A model generated the notes under the pieces. It was not told the DNA's origin. It worked only from the letters and a program-made list of their open reading frames with translations, and did no database searches. Made by a program: the position numbers and the translations under genes. From Dawidia soli (GTDB taxonomy: Bacteria > Bacteroidota > Bacteroidia > Cytophagales > Cyclobacteriaceae), in contig NZ_JAHESC010000021.1 in the NCBI RefSeq assembly GCF_018598185.1, forward strand, positions 62,001 to 126,000: a DNA stretch of 64,000 nt, given 5' to 3'. Positions 4,887 through 15,809 of the stretch are shown here, in pieces; within the stretch, counting starts at the first letter, position 1, and every line of letters begins with the position of its first letter.

Positions 4887-6095
4887 ATGAGTAAACCACT
4901 ACAAGCGCGAATTGCGGCCTATACTGCGGCAAAGGAAGCCCGGGCGCAGGGCATATATCCCTATTTCAGGCCCATCGAGTCAGCCCAGGATACAGAGGTG
5001 GTGATCCAAGGCAAGCGCGTGCTGATGTTCGGGTCCAATTCGTACCTGGGCCTTACCAATCATCCCCGGATCAAAGAAGCTGCCTATAAAGCTGTCGAAA
5101 AGTATGGAACAGGCTGTGCCGGTTCGCGGTTCCTCAACGGCACGCTCGACATACACGTCGAGCTCGAAGAGCGCATCGCTGCCTTCACGGGCAAACAAGC
5201 CGCCCTTATTTTCAGCACCGGCTTTCAGGTGAACCTGGGCGTAATGTCCAGTTTTACAGGCCGCAACGATTATCTCATACTCGACGAATACGACCACGCA
5301 TCGATCTACGACGGCACACGCCTTTCCTTTTCGCGGGTCATTAAGTACGCACACAACGACATGGCCGACCTTGCGCGACGCCTCAGCGTTCTGCCCGAGG
5401 AGTCTATCAAGGTCATCGCTGTAGACGGGATCTTCAGTATGGAGGGCGACATTGCCAAGCTTCCCGAGATCATTGCCATCGCCGACCAGTTTGGTGCCAC
5501 CGTCGTCGTAGACGATGCGCACAGCCTGGGCGTAATAGGTGTGAAGGGGGCCGGCACCGCCTCACATTTTGGCCTCGATGACAAAGTAGACATCATTACC
5601 GGCACCTTCAGCAAATCGCTCGCCTCTCTCGGCGGCTTTGTGGCCAGCGATGCGGACACCATAGACTATCTCAAGCACCATGCGCGCTCGCTCATCTTTA
5701 GCGCCAGCATGACACCTGCCTCGGCTGCCAGTACACTCGCAGCACTCGACATTATCGAGACGGAGCCCGAGCATATGGAAAACTTATGGCGGAACACACG
5801 GTACGCGATGAATCTTTTACAAGAAGAAGGTTTCGATATCGGTGCCACCGAAAGTCCCATCCTGCCTATTTATGTGCGGGACAATGCCAAGACATTTGCC
5901 GTCACCAGCCTGCTGCAACAAGAAGGAGTCTTTGTAAACCCGGTCGTATCGCCGGCGGTACCGTCTGATTCTTCCTTGCTGCGTTTTTCGCTCATGGCCA
6001 CCCACAGCTTCAGTCAGATCGAAGAGGCGGTTGAAAAAATAGCACGCGTATTCCGTCAGGTGGGCGTGCTGGAACTAAAAGAACGCATTAAATGA
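4887..6095 (+). CDS. spt: Serine palmitoyltransferase
   Basis: A 402-residue PLP-dependent alpha-oxoamine synthase. It condenses serine with a long acyl-CoA to 3-ketosphinganine, the first step of sphingolipid synthesis, in the cytoplasm. Visible signs are the [11 protein letters not shown] segment (50-60), [13 protein letters not shown] (74-86), H137 in DEYDHAS which stacks on PLP, D209 and H212 in VVDDAHS, and the Schiff-base lysine K243 in GTFSKSLAS. Related enzymes with the same fold are KBL, BioF and HemA. The sequence looks closest to Bacteroidota and Sphingobacterium SPT, and the next genes complete a ceramide route. The start ATG is the first in the frame. The stop overlaps the next gene by four bases (ATGA), which suggests translational coupling. 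Confidence 0.92.
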
Positions 6096-7213
6096 AACGT
6101 ATCGTAAACGTCAGCGGCAAAGACCAGCTGAAGGCGTTCATTGACTTCCCGCACGACCTGTATAAAGACGATCCGTGTTATGTTCCCGAGCTGTTCATCG
6201 CCCAGCGCGACCTGCTCACCCCGGGTAAGCACCCCTTTCACGAGCACTCTACCATACAGTTGTACCTGGCGTACGACGGCAACAAGATTGTCGGACGGAT
6301 TGCCGCCATCCTCAATAAAAATCACAATACCTTCAACAATACCCGCGACGGTTTCTTCGGCTTTTTCGATGTCATAAACGACGCCGAGGTAGCGCGCATG
6401 CTGTTCGAGCAAGCCGACGGCTGGCTGCGCCAGCAAGGCGTTACGGCGGCTATTGGCCCCGCAAACTTCTCTACCAATGAAACGTGCGGCCTGCTAGTGG
6501 AAGGGTTCGACACGCCGCCCGCGGCGATGATGACCTATAATAAACCTTATTACAGCGCGCTTATCGAAGCGGCGGGGTTTGGCAAAAAGGTTGATATCCT
6601 CGCCTATCGCTTTGGCGCCGACGGTTACGACGACCGTTCGGTGCGGGTAAAAGACACGATGCTGAGTCGTCTCAAACAAAAAGGTATCACGATCCGCCCG
6701 GTCAATGTCAAAAACTTCAAAGAAGAGGTGCGACAGATCCGGAATGTATACAACAACGCGTGGGACAAAAATCTCGGGTTTGTGCCGATGACGGAAGCCG
6801 AGTTCGACTACATGGCCAAGGACATGAAAATGATCCTCGACACGGACTTCTGCCTGGTAGCCGAAAAAGACGGTCGGGCCATCGGCTTTGCCCTGGCCAT
6901 ACCCGACATCAACGAAGTGTTGATCAACGTAAAAAGAGGCCGTCTGCTGCCCCTGGGGCTCTTCAAGTTGCTGTTCGGGTTGAAGAAAGTGAAAGGCATC
7001 CGGGTCATTACACTGGGGGTGGAGGAAGGCTTTCGTAAGCTCGGCATCGAAGCCTGTTTTTATGCCAGCATCATCGAGGCCTATCGAAAAAAGAAACTGA
7101 CGCGGGCGGAGGCGTCGTGGGTGCTGGAAGACAACGCCGCGATGAACAACGCATTGCTGAATATCAAGGGTGTTCCGTACAAGAAGTACAGAATATTCGA
7201 GAAGGCGTTATGA
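6092..7213 (+). CDS. bcerS: Probable bacterial ceramide synthase (GNAT-fold N-acyltransferase)
   Basis: A protein of 373 residues with no signal peptide. It begins inside the last codons of spt (ATGA overlap). The N-terminal half ([12 protein letters not shown], then [14 protein letters not shown] near 70-85 and GFFGFFDV) and the C-terminal GNAT-like part ([34 protein letters not shown]) match the YghO-like family. In Caulobacter the ceramide synthase belongs to this kind of acyltransferase and acylates 3-ketosphinganine. Databases often give such proteins only a generic N-acetyltransferase name. The position between spt and an SDR reductase is the strongest evidence for the specific role. 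Fold and family are seen in the sequence; the acyl substrate is inferred. Confidence 0.78.
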
Positions 7214-14248: not shown

Positions 14249-14866
14249 ATGAAAAAGAACTTTGTTTCAAACAGTACTGAATCGACGCGTATCTTTAAAA
14301 ATGGATTTCTGGAGAGCCTTTCAAAGGTGCATTATAGCGTGCCGTTGATAATCTTTATTCCGATCATAACCTGGTTTGTATACCGGGCGTTGACCGTTAC
14401 GTATACAAATGTGTTCACCTTTATCGCGAGCTGTATCGCCGGCCTGCTGGTCTGGACGCTGACAGAGTATGTGATGCACCGGTTCGTTTTTCATTTTGAA
14501 CCCAAATCGGCCGTGGGAAAAAGATTACACTTCCTCTTCCACGGTGTACACCACGATTATCCCAACGACGCCATGCGCCTGGTATTGCCGCCTTCTGTCA
14601 GCATTCCCCTTGCCACTGGTTTTTACTTCCTGTTCCATGCGTTGCTTCCCGCGGCCTACATGGATGGGTTCTTTGCAACTTTTCTCGCAGGCTACCTCGT
14701 GTACGACATATCGCACTATGCACTACACCATAGCAAGTTTAACAACCGCTTCTGGAAACAGCTGAAACACCACCACATGCAGCACCACTACGCCGACCCT
14801 ACGAAAGGTTATGGTGTAAGCTCCGCCCTGTGGGACAAAATATTCCGTTCCGACTTTGAAAAATAG
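14249..14866 (+). CDS. Fatty acid hydroxylase superfamily protein, probable ceramide hydroxylase
   Basis: A 205-residue membrane protein of the sterol desaturase/fatty acid hydroxylase superfamily. All di-iron histidine boxes are present: HRFVFH (77-82), HFLFHGVHH (94-102), HYALHH (156-161) and HHHMQHH (174-180). Hydrophobic helices lie near 30-50, 55-72, 118-135 and 138-152. The pattern resembles the catalytic half of yeast Scs7 and mammalian FA2H, which 2-hydroxylate the N-acyl chain of ceramide, but it lacks their cytochrome b5 domain. Context in a ceramide block supports hydroxylation of the sphingolipid. A carotenoid or other lipid substrate is possible. It overlaps the next gene by 11 bases. 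Confidence 0.83.
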   Translation: MKKNFVSNSTESTRIFKNGFLESLSKVHYSVPLIIFIPIITWFVYRALTVTYTNVFTFIASCIAGLLVWTLTEYVMHRFVFHFEPKSAVGKRLHFLFHGVHHDYPNDAMRLVLPPSVSIPLATGFYFLFHALLPAAYMDGFFATFLAGYLVYDISHYALHHSKFNNRFWKQLKHHHMQHHYADPTKGYGVSSALWDKIFRSDFEK

Positions 14867-15809
14867 CTTAGACCTGCCTGTGCTTCCCGCGGCCCGCTGG
14901 ATCTCCTGGCGCGACGTGCTCATCGCCGCCGCAGTGTCCGTCACATACCTGGTGGTGTCCGCGTTGCTCATCGGTTTTAAAACCGACCAACTTTTCCTGG
15001 TGCTGATATTCGACACGTTGTACCTGGCGTCGCGCATCACGCGCAAATTTATCCTGGGCTTCTCCGTCTTCATCGTCTTCTGGATCTTGTACGACTATAT
15101 GAAGGCTTTCCCCAACTACGTATACAATGCCGTCCACATCCAGGATCTCTACGAAGCCGAACGTGGCATTTTCGGCCTGGTACAAGACGGTAAACGGGTC
15201 ACACCCAACGAGTACTTTCAGTTGCACAGCGCCGCGTGGGCGGATGTGCTGGCGGGTTTCTTCTACCTGTGCTGGATTCCCGTGCCGCTCGGCTTTGCCG
15301 CTTATCTGTTCTTCAAAGACCGGCCTCGTTTCCTGCAGTTCTTACTGACGTTCCTCCTGGTGAACCTCCTGGGCTTTGTGGTATATTATTTGTATCCCGC
15401 AGCCCCGCCGTGGTACGTACAGCTGCACGGCTTTGATTTCATCGCCGGTACCCGTGGCAATACTGCCGGGCTGATCCGGTTCGACCAGTTCTTTGGCGTC
15501 ACCATCTTCCAGTCGCTGTATCAAAAGGGCTCCAACGTGTTTGCCGCGATGCCCTCGCTGCACTCTGCTTATCCGCTGATCGTGTTTTATACTGCCTGGA
15601 AGGCCCGCCTGCGCGCCGGTACTGTCGTGTTTGGCATTATCACTGTCGGCATCTGGTTCGCCGCCGTTTACACCAGCCACCACTACATCCTCGATGTCCT
15701 GGCCGGCATCGCTACTGCCGCCGCCGGCATCACTCTTTTCCAGCAGCTCCTGCAAAAACAACCTTACTTCCGCAGCTTCGTTCAGCGTTACACACAGCTG
15801 ATCTCGTGA
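14856..15809 (+). CDS. PAP2/Aur1-like inositolphosphotransferase, probable inositol-phosphorylceramide synthase
   Basis: A 317-residue polytopic membrane protein starting at TTG inside the end of the hydroxylase gene; no ATG lies near. Motifs of the PAP2/Aur1 group are PAAPPWY (181-187), AMPSLHSAYP (231-240, with H236) and YTSHHYILD (272-280, with H276 and D280). The enzyme would move phosphoinositol from phosphatidylinositol onto ceramide, releasing diacylglycerol, on the outer face of the inner membrane. A PAP2 protein fills this role in the Bacteroides inositol-lipid cluster. A plain lipid phosphatase would share the motifs, but the surrounding genes favour the synthase. It is the last gene of the block. 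Confidence 0.85.
   Translation: MKNSLDLPVLPAARWISWRDVLIAAAVSVTYLVVSALLIGFKTDQLFLVLIFDTLYLASRITRKFILGFSVFIVFWILYDYMKAFPNYVYNAVHIQDLYEAERGIFGLVQDGKRVTPNEYFQLHSAAWADVLAGFFYLCWIPVPLGFAAYLFFKDRPRFLQFLLTFLLVNLLGFVVYYLYPAAPPWYVQLHGFDFIAGTRGNTAGLIRFDQFFGVTIFQSLYQKGSNVFAAMPSLHSAYPLIVFYTAWKARLRAGTVVFGIITVGIWFAAVYTSHHYILDVLAGIATAAAGITLFQQLLQKQPYFRSFVQRYTQLIS

Follow-up and report, generated by a model that had tools for sequence, protein, structure and literature searches.

Does the eleven-gene block of Dawidia soli encode the whole route to inositol-phosphoceramide (IPC), and is it an operon dedicated to this product? In the window, that is, the entire stretch of 64,000 nucleotides analysed, eleven intact open reading frames of the + strand occupy positions 4887–15809. 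The initial annotation described eleven same-strand genes with overlaps of 4 or 11 bases and gaps of 3–34; the recomputed junctions agree, being, in order, −4, −4, +34, +4, +5, +8, +3, +6, +4 and −11 (with ATG, GTG or TTG starts). Its domain assignments were borne out by family searches. The block and its surroundings comprise the following features.

4668–4697, +, operator-like 30-bp imperfect palindrome, 189 bp 5' of the start of the serine palmitoyltransferase (SPT) gene
4887–6095, +, SPT (NF047600, 738 bits; GTFSKS motif)
6092–7213, +, tandem-GNAT acyltransferase, likely a ceramide synthase, bCerS-like (weak Acetyltransf_1 match; fold; adjacency to SPT)
7210–8193, +, extended SDR of the epimerase family, likely a ketoceramide reductase, CerR-like (PF01370, 1.3e-37; GxxGxxG and YxxxK); its ATG at 7210 makes a 4-base overlap with the GNAT stop
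8228–9553, +, myo-inositol-phosphate synthase (MIPS), BT_1526-like (PF07994, 7.8e-106; PF01658, 8.6e-33)
9558–10004, +, PgpA-type phosphatase, BT_1525-like putative PI-phosphate phosphatase (PF04608, 8.8e-36; position)
10010–10381, +, GtrA membrane protein, BT_1524-like (PF04138, 2.5e-15; PMC9246714, PMC8791184)
10390–12933, +, DUF5686 protein with a CarboxypepD_reg domain (PF18939, 6.8e-58; PF13715, 2.2e-20; signal-like N-terminus)
12937–13683, +, CDP-alcohol phosphatidyltransferase, BT_1523-like putative PI-phosphate synthase (NF052561, 412.6 bits; DxxDGxxAR..GxxxDxxxD)
13690–14244, +, DUF4833 protein, likely secreted, beta-rich (PF16117, 9.5e-45; model pLDDT 87)
14249–14866, +, Scs7/FA2H-like fatty acid hydroxylase (PDB 4zr1, SCS7, E 1.3e-35; 12 aligned His)
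14856–15809, +, Aur1/BT_1522-like putative phosphoinositol-ceramide synthase (NF052609, 345 bits; yeast AUR1 9vj3, E 8.5e-15)
15944–16546, −, TetR-family regulator, convergent with the block (PF00440, 4.8e-13)
16553–16582, −, second operator-like site, 6 bp 5' of the tetR start

It is very probable that the block is a dedicated IPC operon under TetR control, working as follows. SPT would condense serine with an acyl thioester; the resulting keto base would be N-acylated by the GNAT and, in its acylated form, reduced to dihydroceramide by the extended SDR. MIPS would provide inositol phosphate, which the CDP-alcohol transferase would place onto CDP-diacylglycerol, and the PgpA-type phosphatase would release phosphatidylinositol (PI). 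The Aur1-like enzyme would transfer phosphoinositol to ceramide, and the Scs7-like enzyme would add a hydroxyl to the N-acyl chain, probably on C-2. GtrA, DUF5686 and DUF4833 may act in the envelope after or around the synthesis, the latter two perhaps helping the inositol lipid reach the outer membrane. The earlier reading, with SPT, an acyltransferase and an SDR making ceramide, the inositol genes making PI and an Aur1-like enzyme joining the two, is supported in that each step of IPC synthesis has a candidate in the block.

The block is conserved well beyond chance. We collected 80 loci via the PAP2/Aur1-like protein, a sample skewed to its nearer relatives; in nine, a contig end truncates the locus. 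The 71 uncut loci are, without exception, colinear with the window, and the full set of eleven genes is present in 27 of them; hence the eleven-gene order, for which a search in other Bacteroidota had been suggested, is not a one-off. The nine cut loci are colinear as well, though L086 displays one gene only. Protein identity to the window is mostly 35–90%, and the same order is seen in Pontibacter, Chitinophaga, Rufibacter, Ohtaekwangia and other genera. The downstream neighbours are seldom kept (PBP1 in one and AhpC in three of the 80 loci), while upstream the related loci end near SPT, the visible flank of the 55 SPT-linked ones having a median length of 16 bases. The SPT arm is joined to the inositol arm in 55 of the 71 uncut blocks and is absent from 16; the hydroxylase is absent from the same 16. 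PgpA is absent from the six Mucilaginibacter blocks that are without SDR.

In the ceramide arm, SPT exceeds the curated cut-off of NF047600 (738.1 vs. 640 bits). The known bacterial ceramide synthase bCerS is a GNAT. The GNAT of the block has a tandem-GNAT fold (model pLDDT 92; best PDB match E 2.5e-14, to generic tandem GNATs), and by sequence its PDB match is at chance level (E 0.67). So generic a fold is compatible with a ceramide synthase rather than proof of one; it is the neighbourhood and the family that make this function likely. The same two considerations make the SDR a likely ketoceramide reductase; its best NCBIfam match, HpnA, is far under the cut-off (131 vs. 368 bits).

Among the matches listed, a close GNAT copy adjoins SPT in 19 of 23 genomes, a count from which acyltransferase matches of about 30% identity were excluded. 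Many of the latter are distant from SPT, and in the 19 short loci L250–L268 no SPT is visible beside the match; at least five, however, sit between SPT and SDR (L179, L276, L277, L278, L280) and two more lie inside Aur1-type blocks (L075, L076), so that the count of 23 underestimates the ceramide arms. The headgroup modules following the SPT–GNAT arms differ between genomes: the inositol module is missing in six of the 19, and another CDP-alcohol transferase is present in two. The GNAT is missing from two uncut SPT-linked blocks, those of Pedobacter duraquae and Filimonas zeae, and a copy with 61–62% identity is found elsewhere in both genomes. Five Mucilaginibacter-type genomes (six handles, G261 and G313 being one genome) and F. 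zeae have SPT in the block and no SDR there. Since a genome-wide search of these genomes yielded no SDR match at E≤1e-60, they must use another reductase.

In the inositol arm, the CDP-alcohol transferase exceeds the cut-off of the BT_1523 family NF052561 (412.6 vs. 350 bits), and MIPS, PI-phosphate synthase, the PgpA-type phosphatase and the Aur1-like synthase occur together, as in a cluster of the BT_1522–1526 type. According to PMC9246714 and PMC8791184, these genes, GtrA excepted, are needed for PI and IPC in Bacteroides thetaiotaomicron. The Aur1-like protein scores under the cut-off of NF052609, PI-dihydroceramide synthase (345.3 vs. 480 bits). However, this cut-off is narrow, as only one of 296 genomes of the phylum passes it; 44 of the 296 match the family, nine of them strongly, with matches weaker than about E 1e-50 left uncounted. 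The protein matches yeast AUR1 (9vj3) with E 8.5e-15, and at least 76 of the 78 aligned rows conserve its H-H-D residues.

The initial annotation listed three unassigned membrane or secreted proteins. This holds for DUF5686 and DUF4833 and not for GtrA, since PMC9246714 and PMC8791184 describe BT_1524, a member of the known B. thetaiotaomicron operon, as GtrA. The DUF5686 protein is likely situated in the outer membrane. The fold search with the DUF4833 model gave no PDB match at E≤0.001. The idea that DUF4833 marks inositol lipids exclusively was also considered and rejected: the domain is carried by 19 of the 296 phylum genomes, of which six have a strong Aur1-like match.

The hydroxylase aligns with SCS7 (4zr1) over residues 15–200 of 205, and the 12 histidines aligned with those of SCS7 are invariant in 52 rows. 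Since the protein is Scs7/FA2H-like, the product is predicted to be 2-hydroxylated. The gene follows the ceramide arm, as it is present only in SPT-linked blocks: 47 of 55, eight lacking it, against none of the 16 without SPT (Fisher 2.3e-10), or, once collapsed to organism labels (33 in all), 20 of 22 vs. none of 11 (4.0e-7), both values being uncorrected for phylogeny.

The 30-bp operator-like motif has, at up to three mismatches, only two sites in the 7.5-Mb genome, one 5' of SPT and one 5' of tetR, the arrangement of a local autoregulated regulator. A comparable site is found upstream of SPT in three relatives. The pattern derived from the two window sites is present in six of eight upstream regions of relatives, none of 300 resampled controls being as good for each of the six, although regions of relatives had helped to find the motif. 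The operator 5' of tetR was not found in two of the eight regions tested. A tetR homologue is present in at least 17 of the 80 related loci. The adjacent TetR protein may bind both sites and thereby control the operon and its own gene. Another palindrome, GGTATAC, lies 5' of SPT as well as of tetR; the motif common to the relatives was preferred to it.

Spacing and conservation are what suggests a single transcription unit, as scans for sigma-70 promoters and terminators were at chance level (10 vs. 9.7 expected and 16 vs. 14.7). In the window, neither Rfam nor tRNA scans gave a match. The silence of the promoter and terminator scans, which favours neither side, leaves some room for separate operons adjacent by coincidence, an ordinary neighbourhood; however, with all uncut blocks colinear in many genera and three stop/start overlaps, this is hardly credible. 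One operon being preferred, the order of its ceramide steps could be eukaryotic, reduction preceding acylation, as proposed with BT_0972, which turns 3-ketosphinganine into sphinganine in vitro (PMC9278070). We consider this order rather doubtful for the block, since its putative reductase belongs to the extended, epimerase-family SDRs whereas BT_0972 was picked for similarity to yeast KDSR, and since oxidised ceramide accumulates in cerR mutants of Caulobacter (PMC11087976), as fits the Caulobacter order. Acylation followed by reduction is thus the order adopted here.

The hydroxylase, in turn, might act on C-4 of the sphingoid base, like Sur2, and yield phytoceramide instead of 2-hydroxyacyl ceramide. 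The family PF04116 includes both yeast enzymes, Scs7 and Sur2, and, as Sur2 was not among the PDB search matches of the hydroxylase, the Scs7 match alone does not discriminate between them. Still, the strength of this match, nearly full-length and with the histidines aligned, makes the Sur2 type unlikely, and 2-hydroxylation remains our prediction. Finally, the Aur1-like enzyme might give phosphoinositol to a non-ceramide lipid, with ceramide receiving other headgroups and the operon shared for regulation only. The uncut blocks lacking SPT agree with this: a search at E≤1e-120 detects no SPT in 11 of their 16 genomes, hence the acceptor is not necessarily ceramide everywhere; strains of Hymenobacter are among those with an inositol block in which SPT was not detected. 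The ceramide arms without an inositol module or with another CDP-alcohol transferase agree with it as well. On the other hand, the Aur1-like protein is homologous to BT_1522 and yeast AUR1, and most uncut blocks carry both arms, so that we hold this alternative to be quite improbable and retain ceramide as the acceptor.

The chemistry of the predicted product, a yeast-like inositol sphingolipid, is largely known already from gut Bacteroides, where the genes are scattered; PMC11334938, citing an earlier study, describes spt, bcerS and cerR as not near each other in sphingolipid-producing Bacteroidota. Here the candidate ceramide genes sit side by side and continue into the inositol arm, and this holds for several free-living genera. 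It is possible, though we offer it tentatively, that free-living Bacteroidota use a modular cassette: a constant SPT–acyltransferase–reductase core with swappable modules for the headgroup (BT-like CDP-DAG inositol, alternative CDP-inositol or another CDP-alcohol) in a DUF5686/DUF4833 frame, plus an Scs7-like enzyme that adds a yeast-type acyl hydroxyl and, in the relatives of the window, a TetR switch. DUF5686 and DUF4833 would then be parts of the envelope export of the inositol lipid. From the block come candidate enzymes for acylation, reduction and hydroxylation, candidate export proteins and a testable regulator; as a self-contained cassette, it could be transferred to a laboratory host without sphingolipids.

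The closest known system is BT_1522–1526 of B. thetaiotaomicron, which shares MIPS, the PgpA-type phosphatase, GtrA, PI-phosphate synthase and the Aur1-like synthase with the block, as well as their relative order (PMC9246714, PMC8791184). The contrast with Bacteroides drawn initially, ceramide genes and inositol cluster lying apart, holds, since SPT of B. thetaiotaomicron is BT_0870, elsewhere than BT_1522–1526 (PMC9246714), while here SPT–GNAT–SDR is fused in front. Further, the window has DUF5686 inserted between GtrA and PI-phosphate synthase, DUF4833 and the Scs7-like hydroxylase ahead of the Aur1-like synthase, and an adjoining tetR gene that brings operator-like sites of its own. An alternative inositol lipid cluster is described in Bacteroides vulgatus and Prevotella (PMC9246714), and genome G190 (L174), likened to B. 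vulgatus by module make-up, has such a module: NTP transferase, CDP-alcohol transferase, HAD hydrolase and LPG-synthase TM. The window has the BT-like module. In G190, a search for MIPS found nothing at E≤1e-10 and a PfkB-family kinase is present; its module is situated within an SPT–GNAT–SDR–DUF5686 ... DUF4833 frame, as in the window. To our knowledge, no inositol module lies beside spt, bcerS and cerR of Caulobacter. Likened by gene type, these three correspond to the ceramide arm, comprising SPT, an acyltransferase and an NDUFA9-like reductase (PMC11087976). Homologues of yeast AUR1 and SCS7 are both found within this one bacterial block. Yeast, however, makes ceramide with a eukaryotic-type ceramide synthase, whereas the block has a GNAT acyltransferase.

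The block consists of eleven intact open reading frames in a draft genome (7.48 Mb, 122 contigs). With the best starts, its junctions are −4, −4, 34, 4, 5, 8, 3, 6, 4 and −11 bases, and these, together with the Pfam and NCBIfam assignments, bear out the initial annotation as to reading frames, spacing and families. It erred in counting the GtrA protein among the unassigned ones, as BT_1524 of the known inositol-phosphoceramide (IPC) operon of Bacteroides thetaiotaomicron is a GtrA protein in the available text of PMC9246714 and PMC8791184. In these texts, the BT_1524 mutant shows reduced IPC (PMC8791184) and no lipid phenotype by TLC (PMC9246714).

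Features of the window (families by Pfam/NCBIfam)
4668–4697, 30-bp motif, 189 bp ahead of SPT
4887–15809, plus strand, the eleven-gene block, in the order:
plus strand, serine palmitoyltransferase (SPT), NF047600, 738 bits (above the cut-off of 640)
plus strand, GNAT acyltransferase, weak family match
from ATG 7210 (best start), plus strand, extended SDR reductase
from ATG 8228 (best start), plus strand, inositol-phosphate synthase (MIPS)
plus strand, PgpA
plus strand, GtrA
plus strand, DUF5686 protein, also with a CarboxypepD_reg domain
plus strand, PI-phosphate synthase, BT_1523 family, 412.6 bits (above the cut-off of 350)
plus strand, DUF4833 protein
plus strand, fatty acid hydroxylase
from TTG 14856 (best start), plus strand, PI-dihydroceramide synthase relative (Aur1-like), 345.3 bits (under the cut-off of 480)
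15944–16546, convergent with the block, TetR gene
16553–16582, 30-bp motif, 6 bp ahead of tetR

The initial annotation had proposed looking for the same gene order in other genomes. Querying the collection with the Aur1-like protein yielded 84 loci, 80 of which were kept. Relatives of this protein are over-represented in the sample, and Mucilaginibacter, Pontibacter, Chitinophaga and Hymenobacter are abundant. A contig end interrupts nine of the 80, which are colinear as far as visible (one, L086, shows a single gene). All 71 uncut loci are colinear with the window, and 27 of them, spread over 14 organism labels, are complete. SPT is present and one to three other genes are missing in 28, and 16 lack SPT. 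The latter show 2.5–8.5 kb ahead of the first block gene, hence an adjacent ceramide arm would have appeared, at least partly. Parachryseolinea silvisoli, the nearest named relative as judged by the Aur1-like protein (90% identity; 80 of 84 loci), shares all eleven genes and their order, at 85–98% identity. The downstream neighbours are seldom retained (PBP1 in 1/80 loci, AhpC in 3/80). The block is a conserved and apparently self-contained predicted IPC operon. Two Bacteroidota-like inositol blocks carry other labels: L046 (Williamsia sp. MAG) looks like a mislabelled bin, and L080 (Desulfobacterales MAG) could be a mislabelled bin or a transfer.

The Aur1-like protein matches yeast AUR1 structures (E 8.5e−15), and residues H236, H275, H276 and D280 are conserved in 76, 77, 78 and 77 of 78 rows. 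Of 296 genomes drawn from the phylum, nine match the Aur1-like protein strongly; six of them have SPT at a distance of up to about 11 kb, two (G033, G230) have it far away, and G249 has no SPT above the cut-off. Among the 16 genomes with an SPT-less block, five have SPT elsewhere, with GNAT and SDR adjoining it in all of these except G311, and 11 (six Hymenobacter, Fibrivirga, four MAGs) have no SPT at E≤1e−120. These 11 count against the IPC reading: either the joining enzyme uses a different acceptor there, or SPT escaped the search because it is divergent or missing from a MAG. The Hymenobacter loci L065, L066, L073, L074, L078 and L079 and the Fibrivirga locus L067 combine the PI arm and the Aur1-like synthase without the SPT arm, and their genomes yielded no SPT match at E≤1e−120. 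One genome with an SPT-less inositol block, G308, has two MIPS copies (L304, L305; 71% and 46% identity to that of the window).

The hydroxylase aligns over residues 15–200 of 205 with yeast SCS7 (E 1.3e−35), and its 12 SCS7-aligned histidines are invariant in 52 rows. The gene tracks the ceramide arm, as it is present in 47/55 SPT-linked versus 0/16 SPT-less blocks (p 2.3e−10) or, counting a label as positive when at least one of its loci has the gene, in 20/22 versus 0/11 organism labels (p 4.0e−7), both without correction for phylogeny. In L066, one of the SPT-less loci, a relative of the hydroxylase (37% identity) is encoded on the other strand, roughly 6.5 kb downstream. The available text of PMC10002949 describes FA2H relatives with histidine motifs in myxobacteria, therefore the enzyme type is already known in bacteria.

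The acyltransferase ACYLTRANSFERASE is modelled as a tandem GNAT (pLDDT 92). In Pedobacter duraquae and Filimonas zeae it is absent from the block, and a copy of 61–62% identity lies elsewhere in the genome; five loci (L179, L276, L277, L278, L280) have a more distant GNAT (27–36%) between SPT and SDR. Several Mucilaginibacter-type blocks lack the reductase. A search for SDR at E≤1e−60 was positive in 3 of 11 genome handles checked; it found none in five of these Mucilaginibacter-type genomes (six handles, two being one genome) or in F. zeae, therefore another reductase must serve there. Six Mucilaginibacter blocks (L032, L038, L039, L041, L043, L053) are missing the reductase as well as the PgpA-type phosphatase, and gaps of 257–297 bases stand in their places. 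The available text of PMC11087976 supports acylation preceding reduction in Caulobacter, and that of PMC9278070 supports BT_0972 as a ketosphinganine reductase, unclustered with SPT.

A second, less biased sample comprised 395 genomes of the class, some of which also supplied loci of the first sample (L041 comes from G261). An acyltransferase relative at E≤1e−20 is present in 266, and a close one, with at least 52% identity and taken from matches listed in E-value order, in at least 23. Among the matches listed, SPT lies directly ahead of it in 19 of the 23 (16 of 20 regions inspected, L174, L175 and the window). Of these 19 ceramide arms, 10 are followed downstream by a BT-like inositol module (truncated at a contig end in one case), one (G190) by an alternative NTP-transferase/HAD module, two by another CDP-alcohol transferase together with GtrA, and six by none of these, which is evidence that headgroup modules are exchangeable. 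The G190 locus is:
L174 (G190:C23:362000-381500), 5521–17603, minus strand, SPT-GNAT-SDR-DUF5686, then the headgroup module and DUF4833

Its module consists of an NTP transferase, a 289-aa protein without a Pfam match, a CDP-alcohol transferase, an LPG-synthase TM protein, a HAD hydrolase and a PfkB kinase. The G190 genome has no MIPS match and has a PfkB-family kinase; possibly, the module salvages inositol or another polyol headgroup. In L175 and L240, SPT-GNAT-SDR is followed by another CDP-alcohol transferase (52–58% to that of L176) and GtrA, perhaps for a different ceramide headgroup. The flavobacterial-type L176 and L177 (about 7600–12400), perhaps another lipid headgroup locus, lack SPT and have consecutive genes for a classical SDR, a PhyH-type dioxygenase, a CDP-alcohol transferase, GtrA and DUF4833 (domains read from L176 and extended to L177 on the strength of two matches and similar sizes).

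DUF5686 and DUF4833 are present in 68 and 63 of the 71 uncut blocks. Since both also frame the G190 module, they seem tied to inositol lipid rather than to one chemical route; the G190 headgroup itself is uncertain, MIPS being absent. Of 19 DUF4833-positive genomes, 13 have no strong Aur1-like match, and in some flavobacterial-type loci DUF4833 lies near GtrA and a CDP-alcohol transferase. An envelope or export role may be suggested for the two proteins. No papers on either family by name were found in the open literature. In the available text of PMC9246714, Heaver et al. describe that both types of cluster have a carboxypeptidase-regulatory-like protein nearby.

The TetR protein is a candidate dedicated regulator of the block. 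A homologue (over 60 bits) occurs in at least 17/80 loci, a lower bound because SPT-linked loci show almost no upstream sequence (median 16 bases). At up to three mismatches, the 30-bp motif has no site beyond these two, either in the window (100 shuffles yielded none) or in the genome as a whole (reversed-pattern control 0). This pattern was built from the two sites and one of the relative G661, so their perfect fit is uninformative; the lack of a third site is informative. A stricter pattern with 21 fixed bases, derived solely from the two sites in the window, was compared with 300 first-order resampled controls. Ahead of SPT it matches in G660, G661 and G662 with 0, 1 and 3 mismatches, and ahead of tetR in G660, G661 and G663 with 0, 2 and 4 (0/300 controls as good in each case), a non-independent test because the motif was first chosen by comparing the upstream regions of G000 and G660–G663; the close relative G660 contributes little. 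It was not found ahead of tetR in G662 (8 mismatches; 268/300 controls as good) or ahead of the distant TetR gene of G664 (7 mismatches; 120/300).

Among the matches listed, titles and abstract starts of the open literature contain no description of the fused block, which is weak evidence, as most subscription papers were outside the search scope. According to the available text of PMC11334938, citing an earlier study, spt, bcerS and cerR are not close together in sphingolipid-producing Bacteroidota. Ceramide phosphoryl-inositol has been reported in Sphingobacterium spiritivorum, as stated in the available text of PMC9246714. The predicted chemistry of the block is known, and its genomic form is new, with the addition of an Scs7-like hydroxylase.
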